Virus record (IMG/VR): IMGVR_UViG_3300027325_000012
Coordinates: 1 to 22,912 of that record
Reading direction: 5' to 3' (one strand)
Length of the DNA stretch: 22,912 nt
DNA from: a virus
The position numbers and the translations under genes were made by a program. Below are positions 8,243 through 18,932 of the stretch, piece by piece. Under the pieces are notes generated by a model. It saw only the letters and a program-made list of their open reading frames with translations, was not told the origin of the DNA and did no database searches. How positions within the stretch are numbered: position 1 is the first letter of the stretch; each line of letters begins with the position of its first letter.

Positions 8243-8878
8243 ATGAAAACTAAATTTTTAATCATGGCACTGATGCTGTTTACAGCCTTTGCCTTTTCTA
8301 ACACAAACGACGACATGGCAAAACCAACAAACAAAGAACTGATTGAATTGCAAGACAAACATGGTGATCTGTACGATCTGCCAGTAGGAGACAAATTAGC
8401 CATATTACGCGCTCCAAAAATGGCAGATTATAAGCGTGCTTTTACAGCCATGCAAAAAGGTGGAGACATCGCATTTGGTGAAGCCATGCTAGAAGCTTTA
8501 ATGGTAGCAGGTGATAAAGAGATTAAAACTATTGATGATTACTTCTTACCAGCGCGTAAAGAGCTGATGGACTTCTTTAATTATCCAGATGCTACTGTAG
8601 AAACCAAAGGTGCTAAAACAGAAATTACCATTGGCGATTATAGTTGTAAGGTTAGAAAAATAACCAGGGAAGATCTAAAGCTGGCCGAAAAACAGAATCC
8701 GAGTAATAAGCCTTTTGTAACTCAAGAGAAACTCTTTGACATTATATGTATTGAAAAGGACGACGCCTTTAACAATAGATCTAATGCGGAGATACGATTT
8801 CCTTTATTTCAGGCTATAGAGCAATTACAGGTCGTTAAAGTGGCAACGCTAAAAAAGCGCTCACCGATGCCATCATAG
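8243..8878 (+). CDS. Tail assembly chaperone, short form, with N-terminal signal-like segment
   Basis: A 211-aa protein just before the tape measure gene, in the place of lambda gpG-type tail assembly chaperones, which coat the tape measure during tube assembly. The central part is helical and charged: DYKRAFTAMQKGGDIAFGEA, then DKEIKTIDDYFLPARKELMD. The frame-0 product ends PMPS at the TAG at 8876. At codons 204-205 there is an A AAA AAG slippery heptamer (8851-8857) that probably redirects some ribosomes into a 65-codon extension. The first 24 residues (MKTKFLIMALMLFTAFAFSN) look like a Sec signal peptide, unexpected for a cytoplasmic chaperone. An in-frame ATG at 8315 (codon 25, MAKPTNKELIE) would give a normal 187-aa start. 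The upstream start has the A-rich leader usual here, so both remain possible. Confidence 0.78.
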   Translation: MKTKFLIMALMLFTAFAFSNTNDDMAKPTNKELIELQDKHGDLYDLPVGDKLAILRAPKMADYKRAFTAMQKGGDIAFGEAMLEALMVAGDKEIKTIDDYFLPARKELMDFFNYPDATVETKGAKTEITIGDYSCKVRKITREDLKLAEKQNPSNKPFVTQEKLFDIICIEKDDAFNNRSNAEIRFPLFQAIEQLQVVKVATLKKRSPMPS

Positions 8879-13204: not shown

Positions 13205-13576
13205 ATGAACCAAGATAATATTAGAGATTTTAACAATGTAACGTACACTGTACCAGAAGGCAGTGCAATTGTAAAAGAACTGGATGATAGAACTAAGCAC
13301 AATGTAGATGGTTATAATTCTATTGCTGAGCTCGGTGCTAAGTTAAAGGCTCTAATAGATGGAGCAAAGCCTACTACGCTTTACAATGGTCAGATATTAC
13401 ATTATATAAAGCATCCAGATAACAATCCTAACAATGACTTTGAACAAAATGACTTTGTTGAAAATTTAGTGGTAGATAATACTTTGATTGTTAATCTCGG
13501 TCAGTATTTAGGTGGTGATAAAAGTGACATTAACAATATAGATCAGTTGAGCTATACCAGAATACAACCAATATAA
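13205..13576 (+). CDS. Unknown baseplate-region protein (123 aa)
   Basis: A 123-aa hydrophilic protein, acidic and rich in Asn and Asp, with no signal peptide or membrane segment. It begins MNQDNIRDFNNVTYTVPEGS. A helical stretch GYNSIAELGAKLKALIDGAK lies around residues 36-55, then KHPDNNPNNDFEQNDF, and it ends YTRIQPI. I do not recognise a family. It lies two bases after the LysM gene and five bases before an 89-aa gene, inside the late operon. It could be a baseplate or fibre-attachment component. Confidence 0.55.
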   Translation: MNQDNIRDFNNVTYTVPEGSAIVKELDDRTKHNVDGYNSIAELGAKLKALIDGAKPTTLYNGQILHYIKHPDNNPNNDFEQNDFVENLVVDNTLIVNLGQYLGGDKSDINNIDQLSYTRIQPI

Positions 13577-13581
13577 TAGAT

Positions 13582-13851
13582 ATGGAACTATTACAGAAAA
13601 AACAAAAACCGCTTTTGACTCTCATCTTAGAATGGTTTAGAGGCAAAGCCCATTTAGTAAAAAATGATGAGTTTACGCATTACAAAGGTTTAGGTAATGT
13701 GCTCGATAGCTATGAGACAGGTGACTACTTAATAGGTGTTGCCAAAGATGGTTTTAAAACTAAAGGAAATATTTTGGCCACTTATCTCATAAAAGAAGCT
13801 TCAACAGACCAAGTAAAATTAGAATTAATAGGATATCATAAAGCAATATGA
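13582..13851 (+). CDS. Small protein of unknown function before the fibre gene (89 aa)
   Basis: An 89-aa protein starting MELLQKKQKPLLTLILEWFR, which could form an amphipathic or weakly hydrophobic helix but is probably not a true membrane segment. A small beta-like domain follows with YETGDYLIGVAKDGFKTKGN and the strand KLELIGYHKA. The stop codon overlaps the start of the large fibre-like gene by four bases (ATGA at 13848-13851), so the two are probably co-translated and may work together, for example as a fibre attachment or assembly pair. Family not recognised. Confidence 0.53.
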   Translation: MELLQKKQKPLLTLILEWFRGKAHLVKNDEFTHYKGLGNVLDSYETGDYLIGVAKDGFKTKGNILATYLIKEASTDQVKLELIGYHKAI

Positions 13852-16190
13852 AACATTTAAAATTAGTAGTAGTAGCGTTGTTATTTTCAATTATAGCAAG
13901 CGCACAAAGTGGCTTAAAATCTCTAGAGATTAAAGAAGTAAGCGAAATTACACCTGTAGGTTTAGATCTTAGAATGATGGTTTGGGATAGCTTAAACTTT
14001 GGTAAAGTAAAATATGCAAAGCTGAGTGAAATTGCAGCAGCATTAGGGATTACAAACACAGCAGAATTAAATGATCTTAGTGCAGCTGTGGTTTGGGATT
14101 CTGTGCCAAATCCGTTTATAACTAGAGCTTCAGTATTACAACACCAGGCTTATTTTAATATTACCAAATCTCAAATTACAGATTTTGTAGAGGCTAATCC
14201 TGGCTTAGATGATGTTACAAGTGTAGATGATACATCTACCAGACCATTTATTGCAAGTGGCACTAATGGAACTACAGAAGTTGGCGGAGGCTATTTGAGT
14301 GTGTTTGGATTAAATAATCGTTTTTTTCAGATTAATCAAGCGGATGATCGCATGTACTTTAGAGGTAGTAACAATACATTAAATTGGTTAAACCTGCCAA
14401 ACTTTACGAGCTCATCGCTGAGCTGGAGTTTCCCTGAAGCTTCTGGTACTTTTGTTGTAGAAGTTGATCCTTCTGGTTTTAGTGGTAATTTATCATCTAC
14501 GGATGACACCTACCAAAAAGTGGCACAGAAATTTGATGCGTTTAATTCTGGTGCTGGCTCAGGACTGCAAAACATTGTAGAGGATTTGTCACCACAATTA
14601 GGCGAGGACTTAGACCTAAATGGTAACAATATTGTAAGCGGTGCATCCGATTTCATATATTTTAAATTAGGTTCAGAAGAATTATTAACAATAGCACCTT
14701 TTAACGTAGCGATAGGAAAAAACGATACTTATCAGGCTAATTTAAGGTTGTTTGGTGGCCCTGGAACAGGAGGTAATATGTTTTTTTATAATGGAAATTT
14801 TGATGATACTAATACGGACTTTTGGCAACTTATAGCTGATGAAGATTTTAAAATTTTTAATAGTGGTAATTCTAGTACAACTCCCGCTTTAGCGATAGAT
14901 GATTTAACTAATGTGGTAAGTGCGCCTTTAATGAGTGATGCAGACATCAATAGTTTTGGTGATAATGCTCTTATAACAAAACGCTATTTTGATAATAATT
15001 CAGGTGGTAGTTCATCCTCTGACTATATAGGTAACATATCTTTAACTTCCAATATATTAAGTTTTTCAGCAATAGGTACTGCATTTGATGGTAGTGTTGA
15101 TTTATCTGCTTACGACCAAGAAGCAGATGAAGTAACATTCACACCCTATTTAGAAAATACAGCTACAGATGTACAAGGTGCAATACAAAGTAATAAGGAT
15201 GAAATAAATGCTTTAGAAGCCTCTATACCAAGTAACATAATAGACGTTATAGAAATTACAGCAGATACGACTTTAGTAGAAGCAGACATTAAAGCAGGAA
15301 AAGTATTTGTAATTGTTGGTGATATAGACACAACAATAACATTACCAGAAATTACAACTACTGAATTTACACCTATAACTATACATCAAGAAGGTACAGG
15401 TACAGCTACAGTTATTCCAAGTGAAAACGTTAATCAAAAACAATACGAACAATCTTTTAATGGTAATGATACAAATGCTTTATCACTATATGCTAGAGAA
15501 GATAACACATACCACCTTCATCGTGGCGATAGTACCATTGTAAGTGTTTACACTCCGCCAAGTGGAAGTTTAAGACCTTCATGGGTAGATACATATAACG
15601 GAGTTAGCACAACCTTAACTACTACGGTAACAGCTACTCCTACGAGTGGTAATTATTTAGTCGCGAAAATATCCGCAGGTGATTTTAGCACAATAGACGC
15701 CCCTCCAGCAGGTTGGACAGAACTTCATAGAGTTAATAACAGCTTTGGAACTTTTGCGTTTTTTGTTAAAGAATCTGATGGTAGTGAAACTTCTGTAGAT
15801 TTCACTAAAACAGGTGGTAACGGAAGAATATTTTTAGCAACCATAGATGAATTTGAAAATGTAAGTGATGCTACTGCTTACGAAAGTTTACAAACAGGAA
15901 GTAGATTAGAAAATACAACCGCAACTATACAAAGCGTTACAAGTACAAATGCTAACTCATTGGCAGTGTCGTTTCTGGCAATGGAAGACATTAATAATAT
16001 CGATGATTCAATAACAGCCAACCCTTCGAACTATTCTATTATAGATGAATTTTCAAGCAACCTAGATAGTGGTGCATGGCATATTTTATTATCACAAAAT
16101 ATAGAGGTTGAAACTTTAGCTAGTGATTCAATTATATTCGACCACAGTGCAGTACACGTGGTTATGACCTTAGTACTAAACCCTAATTAA
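13848..16190 (+). CDS. Large fibre/adhesin-like protein with Sec signal peptide (780 aa)
   Basis: A 780-aa modular protein. The first 19-20 residues form a clear Sec signal peptide (MKHLKLVVVALLFSIIASAQ, cleavage after A19 likely), and the start is fixed by the ATGA overlap with the gene before. The body has phage fibre motifs: PQLGEDLDLNGNNI (about 249-262), NALITKRYFDN (about 373-383), and EVTFTPYLENTATDVQGAIQ (about 428-447) followed by a short helix. Residues about 575-780 form a beta-rich C-terminal domain, probably a jelly-roll-like binding or trimerisation module. So it is a fibre-type protein with an export signal, not expected for a cytoplasmically assembled virion. It may be surface-displayed by the lysogen or have an uncleaved leader. 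It has no recognisable type IX secretion C-terminal domain. Confidence 0.72.
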   Translation: MKHLKLVVVALLFSIIASAQSGLKSLEIKEVSEITPVGLDLRMMVWDSLNFGKVKYAKLSEIAAALGITNTAELNDLSAAVVWDSVPNPFITRASVLQHQAYFNITKSQITDFVEANPGLDDVTSVDDTSTRPFIASGTNGTTEVGGGYLSVFGLNNRFFQINQADDRMYFRGSNNTLNWLNLPNFTSSSLSWSFPEASGTFVVEVDPSGFSGNLSSTDDTYQKVAQKFDAFNSGAGSGLQNIVEDLSPQLGEDLDLNGNNIVSGASDFIYFKLGSEELLTIAPFNVAIGKNDTYQANLRLFGGPGTGGNMFFYNGNFDDTNTDFWQLIADEDFKIFNSGNSSTTPALAIDDLTNVVSAPLMSDADINSFGDNALITKRYFDNNSGGSSSSDYIGNISLTSNILSFSAIGTAFDGSVDLSAYDQEADEVTFTPYLENTATDVQGAIQSNKDEINALEASIPSNIIDVIEITADTTLVEADIKAGKVFVIVGDIDTTITLPEITTTEFTPITIHQEGTGTATVIPSENVNQKQYEQSFNGNDTNALSLYAREDNTYHLHRGDSTIVSVYTPPSGSLRPSWVDTYNGVSTTLTTTVTATPTSGNYLVAKISAGDFSTIDAPPAGWTELHRVNNSFGTFAFFVKESDGSETSVDFTKTGGNGRIFLATIDEFENVSDATAYESLQTGSRLENTTATIQSVTSTNANSLAVSFLAMEDINNIDDSITANPSNYSIIDEFSSNLDSGAWHILLSQNIEVETLASDSIIFDHSAVHVVMTLVLNPN

Positions 16191-16192
16191 TA

Positions 16193-18400
16193 ATGAAGAA
16201 ATTAATTTTAATATTTTTACTTTTTAGTGGGTTGAGCTATTCTCAAGAAGCTACTATTTACACTCATTTCAGTAGAGACTTTATTTCTTACGACTTGGAT
16301 AGTACGGTTGTCTATACCATAAATAGAGCTTTTGAAGTTGACGACCTTTTTAACACAGCCTTAGAAGTTTTTTATACGGTTAGTGGTAGTGGCACAAGCG
16401 AAGTTGATATAGTTAATGGTAGCGCAACTATTCCTATCGACAAGGCTTATGTAGATATTACTATAGCCTTAAATAGTAGTACTGCACCAAATTTAGCAGA
16501 TAGAGATTTAACAATTACAATTACAGCAAATTCAAATTATACGATAGGTGATAATTTTGGTACAAGTTTAGGTATTAGAACTATTGCAGTAATGGATGAA
16601 AGCCCTCTTAAAGCATTTCCTACAGCGTATGGAGGTGGAGCTTATGCAAAAGGTGGTAGAGGTGGTTTTGTTTATCATGTAACAAGATTAGATGATTACA
16701 TTCCTGGCTCTACTCCAATAATAGGAACATTTAGATGGGCAATAGAACAACCAAGACCAGCTACTATCGTTTTTGATGTAAGTGGTACAGTTGTTTTTAT
16801 AAGAAGTTTAATTGAAGATTTTCACGATTTGACTATAGCTGGACAATCTTCTCCTTTAGGTGGTATCACTTTAACCACTGACGGATTAAAGAATACTCAT
16901 TCAGGAGGAAATAATAACTATAAGCAAATAGAAGCTAGAGGTGAATGTGATAATTTAATCATGCGGTATATAGCCGTCAGACACCATTTAACAACTCTTG
17001 GCGGTTTCACGGTTTACAGTAATCAAGACTCCGCAAGAAATATGATTTTTGATCATTTATCTTTTAGTTGGGCTGGTAATTCATCTTTCAGTACTAGAGG
17101 TGGTTTCACTGAAAATATTACTATGCAGAACAGTATCATAGCTGAAAGTAAAGTCGGAGGTTTAATGACCAATAGCCAAGAACATGAAGACACGAACAAT
17201 ATTTCATATCATAACAATTTATTTTACAATGCGTCGCATAGACTATTCAACAACGGTGCGAATGGTCGTGTTGACAATGTCAACAACATCATACAAAGTT
17301 GGAAGTTTAGACTTTCTTATATAAATGGTGATATTCGTTACAACCATTTAAACAATTACTACGCTATGGGTGAGCGTACTGATATTGAAAATGCTTTTGG
17401 ACAAATATTTGTTAATTTCTTAGATACAAGTTTTGGAGCTAAAACGTCAGCAACTACGGAGGACACGGTTTTTGATTATGAAGTTTTTACAAACGGTAAT
17501 ATTATAGATAAATCCATACATAATATTAATGATGACAACAGAGATTTATGGGCTGAATTTGATGGCGAATATAAAACCTATGTTACAAAGGATAGTTTAA
17601 ACGCCGATTACCCTTTTATACATGCACAACACCCATTAATTGGAAGTACAGAATCAAGATTACCATTAAGAACTGCTAATGAAGTTTACAACGAGTTAAG
17701 AACTAATCCAAATGTAGGCTCTAATGCTTCACTTAATGCTGACGGAACTGTTACTAGAAAATTTGACAATATCGACGGGGAGTATATGTTAGTCATGGCT
17801 CAAGGAGAAGGCTCTCACGAAGCATATACCACAAGTGGCACAGCTGCTAACAGAAGTCACTATACCGAGCAAAGGTATTTGGATTTCGTAAACAATCTTA
17901 CGACCACACCTATAAATACCAGGCCATCAGATTTTTATAATTCTGCTAAAAGTGAACATATACCAGAGGAATTTTTTGAATTGTATATGTCAACAGGCGA
18001 CACGCATAATGATATTGCGCCAAGCGGTTACACTTGGATGGAAGAATATCTTAACAGCGGATTTAATACAACAATTACCAATGTTACTGAAGTAAACGTT
18101 AATCCGCCAACAATTACAATAGATGGAGGAAATTCTGTTCAATTAGGTGTTAGTTTTATTCCTTCAAATTCTACTAACAAAACAGGAAATTGGGGGAGTA
18201 GTAATAATGCAGTAGCTATTGTAAATCAAAAAGGTTTAGTGACCAGAGTAGCTGACGGACAAAGCACAATAGCTTTTACATCTAATGATGAAACTAATGG
18301 TATAATAACGGATACTTGCGTGGTTACTTTTATAAATGGAACAGTTCAAGTAAAAAGAATTTTAAGCCGAAAATCAAAATCTAGTTTAATATCAAATTAA
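16193..18400 (+). CDS. Secreted pectate-lyase-like beta-helix enzyme, possible tail depolymerase (735 aa)
   Basis: A 735-aa protein starting two bases after the fibre gene. Layout: Sec signal peptide (1-17, MKKLILIFLLFSGLSYSQ); a Calx-beta-like domain (about 25-135); and a right-handed beta-helix of the pectate lyase family 1 type (about 140-400, with AFPTAYGGGAYAKGGRGGFV, FRWAIEQPRPATIVFDVSGT, DLTIAGQSSPLGG and FDHLSFSWAG). A carbohydrate-lyase-like C-terminal linker follows (EHIPEEFFELYM, SGYTWMEEYLNSG), then a Big2-like Ig domain (about 635-715) and a short basic tail (KRILSRKSKS). Predicted activity is cleavage of a polyuronate-type polysaccharide; the true substrate is unknown, and the calcium-binding DGDGMPD-like motif common in host enzymes is not seen. 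It may be a tailspike depolymerase or an enzyme secreted by the lysogen. Confidence 0.78.
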   Translation: MKKLILIFLLFSGLSYSQEATIYTHFSRDFISYDLDSTVVYTINRAFEVDDLFNTALEVFYTVSGSGTSEVDIVNGSATIPIDKAYVDITIALNSSTAPNLADRDLTITITANSNYTIGDNFGTSLGIRTIAVMDESPLKAFPTAYGGGAYAKGGRGGFVYHVTRLDDYIPGSTPIIGTFRWAIEQPRPATIVFDVSGTVVFIRSLIEDFHDLTIAGQSSPLGGITLTTDGLKNTHSGGNNNYKQIEARGECDNLIMRYIAVRHHLTTLGGFTVYSNQDSARNMIFDHLSFSWAGNSSFSTRGGFTENITMQNSIIAESKVGGLMTNSQEHEDTNNISYHNNLFYNASHRLFNNGANGRVDNVNNIIQSWKFRLSYINGDIRYNHLNNYYAMGERTDIENAFGQIFVNFLDTSFGAKTSATTEDTVFDYEVFTNGNIIDKSIHNINDDNRDLWAEFDGEYKTYVTKDSLNADYPFIHAQHPLIGSTESRLPLRTANEVYNELRTNPNVGSNASLNADGTVTRKFDNIDGEYMLVMAQGEGSHEAYTTSGTAANRSHYTEQRYLDFVNNLTTTPINTRPSDFYNSAKSEHIPEEFFELYMSTGDTHNDIAPSGYTWMEEYLNSGFNTTITNVTEVNVNPPTITIDGGNSVQLGVSFIPSNSTNKTGNWGSSNNAVAIVNQKGLVTRVADGQSTIAFTSNDETNGIITDTCVVTFINGTVQVKRILSRKSKSSLISN

Positions 18401-18402
18401 GA

Positions 18403-18528
18403 ATGAAAAAAAAGAATCTATTTAATGAGTTAGGTGATGTTGCTGGATTTGCTATAGTCTGTTTTATTATTATTGGCTTAGTATTCGGTGGGTTAATTGT
18501 ATTTGGTATTAATTGGTTGTTAAAATAA
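18403..18528 (+). CDS. Tiny single-span membrane protein (41 aa)
   Basis: A 41-aa protein that starts two bases after the lyase stop and has a Lys-rich start (MKKKNLFNELGD). One transmembrane helix follows (about 13-36, with FAIVCFIIIGLVFGGLIVFG, containing GxxxG-like packing), then a short end (INWLLK). Small phage proteins of this kind can be holins, antiholins or membrane adaptors. The function is inferred only from the membrane helix and from the two membrane protein genes that follow. Its stop at 18526-18528 lies six bases before the ATG of the next gene, which helps set that start at 18534, not 18513. Confidence 0.58.
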   Translation: MKKKNLFNELGDVAGFAIVCFIIIGLVFGGLIVFGINWLLK

Positions 18529-18533
18529 AAATT

Positions 18534-18932
18534 ATGGAAACATTTAAAGAATTAGCACATCAGCTATTAGGTGAGCACGCAGTTGAAGTTTGGATTGCAG
18601 GAATATGGTGGTCATTCTTAGGAATTGTAGCGGTTAAATTATATTACTTAAATCCAAAAGTTAAGTTCAGTTTTAAATTTTGGATAAATGACAATTTTTT
18701 AGATGTAGTTAAAGGTTTGTTTTGGGCTTTAATTATTCTTAGACTTGGTGACTATATTATTCATTTAGCACAAGATAAATTAGACTGGTCTATTCCTGAA
18801 ACTACTGATTTTGTTATTTACATGATTGTCATTAGTGGATTCATTCAATATAAATTACATAAAAAGAGAAAGCCAGTTAGTAAGAAGATTGCTCAAGAAA
18901 TGCATATTCATAACGAAAATTGTAAACATTAA
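18534..18932 (+). CDS. Three-span membrane protein, holin candidate (132 aa)
   Basis: A 132-aa protein (start chosen at 18534: an upstream in-frame ATG at 18513 lies inside the 41-aa gene and lacks a leader). Three hydrophobic segments are seen: about 18-38 (VEVWIAGIWWSFLGIVAVKL), 57-78 (DVVKGLFWALIILRLGDYII) and 91-107 (TDFVIYMIVISGFIQY). They are followed by a basic, polar C-terminus (KLHKKRKPVSKK) ending in a His/Cys-rich HIHNENCKH. Three spans and about 130 aa fit class I-type holins, which form lesions that let the endolysin reach the wall. No family was recognised. The neighbouring small membrane genes support a lysis/membrane cassette role. Alternatively it may be a lysogenic-conversion membrane protein. 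Confidence 0.58.
   Translation: METFKELAHQLLGEHAVEVWIAGIWWSFLGIVAVKLYYLNPKVKFSFKFWINDNFLDVVKGLFWALIILRLGDYIIHLAQDKLDWSIPETTDFVIYMIVISGFIQYKLHKKRKPVSKKIAQEMHIHNENCKH

Follow-up and report, generated by a model that had tools for sequence, protein, structure and literature searches.

The window analysed here – the whole of a 22,912-base IMG/VR virus record, IMGVR_UViG_3300027325_000012 – has the gene content of a myovirus fragment, as read from its open reading frames (ORFs) and their PHROG matches. Minus-strand terminase genes, a prohead protease, a capsid region, a CHAP endolysin, sheath, tube, tape measure and hub occur in that order, followed by a fibre region and a D12 methyltransferase. 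A nucleotide search with the window found no named phage related at the DNA level, while contig L003 is 100% identical to it across 14 kb. Relatives of the hub protein are flavobacterial phages, those with names including Winogradskyella phage Peternella_1 and Flavobacterium phages such as pippi8-1; the named phages nearest to the window have Winogradskyella and Flavobacterium as hosts. A search for the hub in six host genomes gave no match and is uninformative. Judged by sequence, the window is a fragment of a Winoviridae-like flavobacterial phage.

The gene of interest encodes a pectate-lyase-like protein (Table 1). It lies in the tail gene cluster, which also includes the sheath, tape measure and baseplate genes, starting 2 bases past a fibre-like gene and ending 2 bases ahead of a small ORF. 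The body of that upstream fibre is common to fibres lacking a signal peptide, and its N-terminal module is kept in Winogradskyella prophages; tblastn searches gave no match to the window fibres in named phages. Peternella gp53 is a 679-aa protein (L129:11578-13617) whose N-terminal module is split off in the window as the protein at 13205-13576. Elsewhere in the window, the tail-chaperone-like ORF at 8243-8878 begins with a predicted signal peptide. The relatives L004 and L011 have a separate small signal-bearing ORF ahead of the tail chaperone, so the true start of the window ORF may be an internal Met at residue 25.

Table 1. Features of the lyase gene and its immediate surroundings in the window.
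Feature	Position	Strand	Basis
123-aa protein, first 50 aa 78% identical to the Peternella gp53 N-terminus	13205..13576	+	
89-aa protein kept in the slot	13582..13851	+	37-47% identity to prophages L140 and L139
Fibre-like protein, 780 aa, own predicted signal peptide, directly upstream of the lyase	13848..16190	+	ORF; strict signal heuristic
Lyase gene, 735 aa, ATG start, no internal stop	16193..18400	+	ORF; PHROG, PDB and fold matches
Predicted Sec (SPI) signal peptide, residues 1-17, MKKLILIFLLFSGLSYS/Q	16193..16243	+	Hydrophobic core, Q+1 site; strict heuristic; aligned with the L023 signal end
Calx-beta-like domain, residues 18-136	16244..16600	+	Foldseek to 3ead, 2dpk, 3gin
PL1-type beta-helix lyase domain and C-terminal linker, residues 137-625	16601..18067	+	9buj Z 38.5, VexL Z 28.6; alignment
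Arg350, predicted catalytic base of the PL1 R-x-P motif	17240..17242	+	Alignment
Big_2 (bacterial Ig-like group 2) domain, residues 631-700	18083..18292	+	PF02368, E 7.1e-16
Basic/hydrophobic C-tail, residues 717-735, resembling other phage lyase tails	18341..18397	+	pLDDT under 50
41-aa small membrane protein 3' of the lyase	18403..18528	+	Read from sequence
Membrane protein, TTG start as listed	18513..18932	+	Similar gene 3' of the lyase in phage L113

Domain layout, fold and active site

An initial annotation of this DNA had described the gene as pectate-lyase-like, with a Sec signal and Calx-beta-like and Big2-like domains, inside a phage tail operon. That description was borne out by the ORF, a strict SPI heuristic, Foldseek and Pfam PF02368. 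The N-terminus, MKKLILIFLLFSGLSYS/QEA, satisfies the strict heuristic rule, as do only 20 of 464 viral ORFs. A model of residues 18-136 matched the Calx-beta structures 3ead, 2dpk and 3gin with TM-scores, normalised by target, of 0.65-0.71 and Foldseek E-values of about 2e-3 to 6e-3. No virion-anchor family was recognised at the N-terminus in Pfam or PHROG, this region being occupied by the signal peptide and the Calx-beta fold.

The expected PL1-type beta-helix was recovered by structure prediction (AF2 model of the 735-aa protein: mean pLDDT 75, pTM 0.73). Among solved structures PfPL1, 9buj, ranks first (Z 38.5 over 404 residues), ahead of Jun a 1 and VexL, and the top 25 VIA-align rows (Z 24-38) consist of pectate and pectin lyases and kin such as the latter two; the fold is a right-handed parallel beta-helix of PL1 type. 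Sequence comparison agrees, with matches to phrog_27797, 'pectate lyase' (E 3.9e-16), and to PDB 9buj (E 5e-14). Pfam PF00544 gave no match for the window lyase itself and matched four of 12 aligned relatives (best E 4.7e-11); an NCBIfam search returned no real match.

A predicted lyase active site, which the initial annotation had named for checking, was recognised as well. Arg350 aligns with the R-x-P arginine of 9buj, VexL, 7xks, Jun a 1 and 3zsc and is invariant in 19 aligned proteins, and the conserved DH, NN and R residues around it are all kept. Phe352 stands where the R-x-P proline is near-invariant, the window protein alone among the 19 having Phe, and this substitution counts against an active enzyme. 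On balance we regard the protein as an active-looking PL1-type lyase. Its C-tail, VKRILSRKSKSSLISN, stands in place of a type IX secretion (T9SS) signal, as had been noted from the sequence: the T9SS sorting domain Por_Secre_tail (PF18962) found no match in the window lyase.

Relatives in host EPS loci and in other phages

The closest full-length relative of the window lyase comes from Winogradskyella bathintestinalis, where it makes up the N-terminal third of a 1991-aa protein (L023). The two are collinear, with 39-43% identity across signal, N-terminal domain, lyase and Big_2, and among the chromosomal lyases compared only L023 aligned in the Calx-beta-like domain. Beyond Big_2, L023 continues into Ig/PKD-like repeats and then a Por_Secre_tail T9SS domain. 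It sits in an EPS cluster, among asparagine-synthase-like, glycosyltransferase, Wzx-like and Wzy-like genes, with a UDP-sugar dehydrogenase and a UDP-glucuronate-epimerase-like gene on the other side (all named by eye from sequence). The initial suggestion of a captured host enzyme turned depolymerase is well supported by this collinear relative and by the missing T9SS tail.

Homologues of the lyase are present in 48 of 68 Winogradskyella genomes (E 1e-20 or better) and in 22 of 397 genomes drawn from the family Flavobacteriaceae (E 1e-30). Among 34 chromosomal loci with usable flanks, 33 share one or more genes with the L023 EPS locus; UGDH is found at 23 of the 34 and a UDP-uronate-epimerase-like gene at 21. 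Lyase identity rises with the sharing of EPS genes (Mantel r 0.48, p 0.001), and a partial rank correlation of 0.27 remains given a two-gene species proxy, which was available for 190 of 561 pairs; the co-variation is partly shared ancestry. Six chromosomal lyases fall in the clade containing the window lyase (SH-aLRT 98-99), and their loci are the ones at which an L023-type Wzy was detected. Lyase type thus appears to track EPS-locus type. In most Winogradskyella genomes (L062-L101) the EPS locus includes a single, very large secreted PL1-type lyase, encoded on the strand opposite to the biosynthesis genes.

A profile-guided scan of IMG/VR for phage lyases yielded 26 loci, three of which (L116, L122 and L126) are of doubtful viral or Bacteroidota origin. 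The phage lyases are scattered among host lyases in the tree; a grouping of the phage lyases in a single clade was rejected (AU p about 1e-119, with long branches omitted), and the supported branches require eight or more changes between phage and host labels. Given this scatter, transfer has been repeated. We infer a direction for each event: phages appear to have borrowed such lyases many times, and the purpose was probably the dissolving of the host polysaccharide coat. Fecal contigs labelled 'Bacteriophage sp.' (L017-L021, MT835778 and others) were rejected as sources of phage lyases. They look like Bacteroides utilisation-locus DNA, several of their flanks having SusC/SusD-like and tandem pectate-lyase genes of Bacteroides type (judged by eye).

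The lyase is missing from all hub relatives searched and is therefore an accessory in this phage lineage. Absence from related prophages had been named in the initial annotation as grounds for doubt. It holds for these hub relatives but not for a prophage syntenic with the window in Winogradskyella genome G033 (locus L140), where another lyase occupies the slot. Three genes on one side of that slot are 54-67% identical to those of the window, and the slot itself encodes a signal-bearing protein of 934 aa that combines a diverged PL1 domain with Big_2 and a C-tail of similar type; the slot is thus one that takes different lyases. A C-tail pattern of a Lys/Arg run, a few aliphatic residues and Asn-like ends occurs in eight of 638 viral ORFs, all of them lyases, a count that is descriptive because the pattern was written after seeing those eight. 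The L140 lyase, from outside the pattern-building set, matches it, as do two of 226 other ORFs of the second set.

Further arrangements were seen among the phages. In the Winogradskyella prophage L139 (5095-7876) the fibre slot encodes three consecutive signal-bearing proteins, and no lyase was recognised there. A 2116-aa phage protein (L106:4276-10626, also L107) apparently contains three tandem lyase-like segments by blast. One prophage with both fibre and lyase (L090/L141 and L108) was met in IMG/VR and in Winogradskyella genome G038, so that a host is known for that type.

Possible export, virion attachment and substrate

Signal peptides recur on fibres as well as on lyases. Scoring by eye and by the heuristic, in phages that are related and not independent, we counted 11 loci with a signal on both the lyase and the preceding fibre, two with one on the lyase alone, none on the fibre alone and nine with neither (11/2/0/9, Fisher p 2e-4). 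Distance to the lysis genes, judged by eye, did not separate signal-bearing from signal-less lyases. In Cellulophaga phage phi10:1, gp091-gp094 are structural by MS/MS according to their GenBank notes, and all four signals pass the strict rule; this rule is passed by four of 12 virion proteins versus two of 49 others (Fisher p 0.011). MS-recorded virion fibres with textbook Sec signals imply either that the signals are unused or that some of a tailed virion is put together after export, and raise the question of the route by which Sec-tagged fibres reach a tailed virion.

We think it probable, if some way from secure, that the window encodes a PL1-type lyase taken by a Winoviridae-like flavobacterial phage lineage from the class kept in Flavobacteriaceae EPS loci. 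The enzyme would be made late in infection together with the tail proteins, exported by Sec, and would cleave host-made uronic-acid-containing EPS or capsule by beta-elimination, giving virions a way to or from the cell surface. The most likely target is EPS made by the host itself and not algal polyuronates, since the chromosomal relatives are found within EPS biosynthesis loci and vary together with the gene content of those loci. Counting against this explanation are Phe352, the hub relatives without a lyase, and the pectate lyase of phi10:1, gp095, which bears no virion note.

The enzyme may act as a virion depolymerase, a reading we hold tentatively, in which it is mounted on the tail, possibly via the adjacent fibre or the C-tail, despite its signal peptide. 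The position in the tail operon beside a fibre-like gene suggests as much, as do the co-occurrence of lyase and upstream-fibre signals, the virion status of the signal-bearing phi10:1 fibres, and the similar C-tail on divergent enzymes. Proteins annotated as pectate lyases in phages Nekkels and phi13:2 also begin with the N-termini of phi10:1 gp093 and gp094, so that in Nekkels fibre N-termini are found on annotated lyases. The window lyase, however, shows no recognisable anchor domain and, as tailed virions assemble in the cytoplasm, a Sec-exported part would need some other route.

Alternatively, the lyase may be a free egress enzyme, exported to the periplasm, never in the virion, and freed at lysis to dissolve the EPS around the burst cell. 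This we hold about as tentatively as the virion reading. The predicted signal peptide and the want of a recognisable virion anchor are consistent with it, as is phi10:1 gp095, a signal-bearing lyase encoded right after the four MS-detected fibres and lacking a virion note although the portal and capsid carry one in the same GenBank record; VexL, too, works in the periplasm by its entry title. Against this, a missing MS note is weak evidence, and the annotated lyases of Nekkels and phi13:2 share N-termini with MS-detected virion proteins. A bolder proposal, which we rate as unlikely, is that in some flavobacterial tailed phages both fibre and lyase are exported by Sec and join the virion only once out of the cytoplasm, either in the periplasm or when the cell lyses. 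Host EPS lyases would then be exchangeable in the tail-operon slot, which would serve as their mount, and the short basic/hydrophobic C-tail would do the docking.

Two further readings seem very improbable. The hosts are marine bacteria that degrade polysaccharides, and pectate is the usual substrate of PL1 enzymes, so a lysogen might gain the use of algal pectin or alginate, much as the initial annotation had offered access to polyuronates as an option. That option found no support: the gene is packed in a tail operon, promoter scans with simple consensus motifs gave counts no higher than in shuffled sequence, its kin lie in EPS rather than utilisation loci, and it has no T9SS signal for reaching the outside. 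Retention of an inactive lyase as a carbohydrate-binding fibre domain would accord with Phe352 but not with the intact catalytic arginine and its conserved surroundings.

Comparison with known systems

Among solved structures, PfPL1 of Pseudoalteromonas fuliginea is the best match in both structure and sequence (26% identity) but covers residues 137-625 only and is not phage-borne. VexL (PDB 6fi2) shares the PL1-like fold and an aligned R-x-P arginine, and its entry title describes a periplasmic capsular-polysaccharide depolymerase tied to capsule secretion; it is a non-phage protein, 19% identical, and covers only the lyase part of the window protein. The EPS-locus lyases (L023/L062, L063, L064 and L092) are closer, with a signal peptide and a PL1 domain 43-48% identical over the lyase region, and L023 has signal peptide, Calx-beta domain, PL1 and Big_2 in the same order as the window lyase. 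They differ in being mostly 900-2500 aa long, many with T9SS-like ends (PF18962 was confirmed in L023), and in lying inside EPS loci, whereas the window lyase lacks a T9SS sorting domain and belongs to a phage tail operon.

Of the phages, Peternella_1 (Winoviridae) resembles the window in tail gene order, in a hub 29% identical, and in homologues of the N-terminus of the 123-aa protein and of the last fibre, but its slot holds neither a lyase nor a signal-bearing fibre. The pectate lyases of phi10:1 (gp095), Nekkels and phi13:2 are, like that of the window, signal-bearing and placed in a tail-fibre cluster with signal-bearing fibres. Their sequences are distant, giving no tblastn match to the window lyase, and they are without the C-tail motif; those of Nekkels and phi13:2 differ further in their fibre N-termini.

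Phage-borne pectate lyases in general are already known (PMC5380687). Pectin and alginate lyase domains were described by Bartlau and colleagues in the flavophages Leef, Ingeline and Nekkels; the authors remarked on signal peptides and suggested that enzymes of this kind act against the polysaccharides surrounding the host (PMC8776804). A limited literature search found no published description of signal-bearing tail fibres or of Winogradskyella EPS-locus lyases. Within the scope of that search, the EPS-locus kinship, the match of lyase type to EPS type, the fixed slot with swapped lyases, the common C-tail and the co-occurrence of lyase and fibre signals are apparently new. They tie phage depolymerases to host EPS-locus lyases through repeated transfer, and suggest a rule by which the type of EPS that a flavophage attacks might be predicted.
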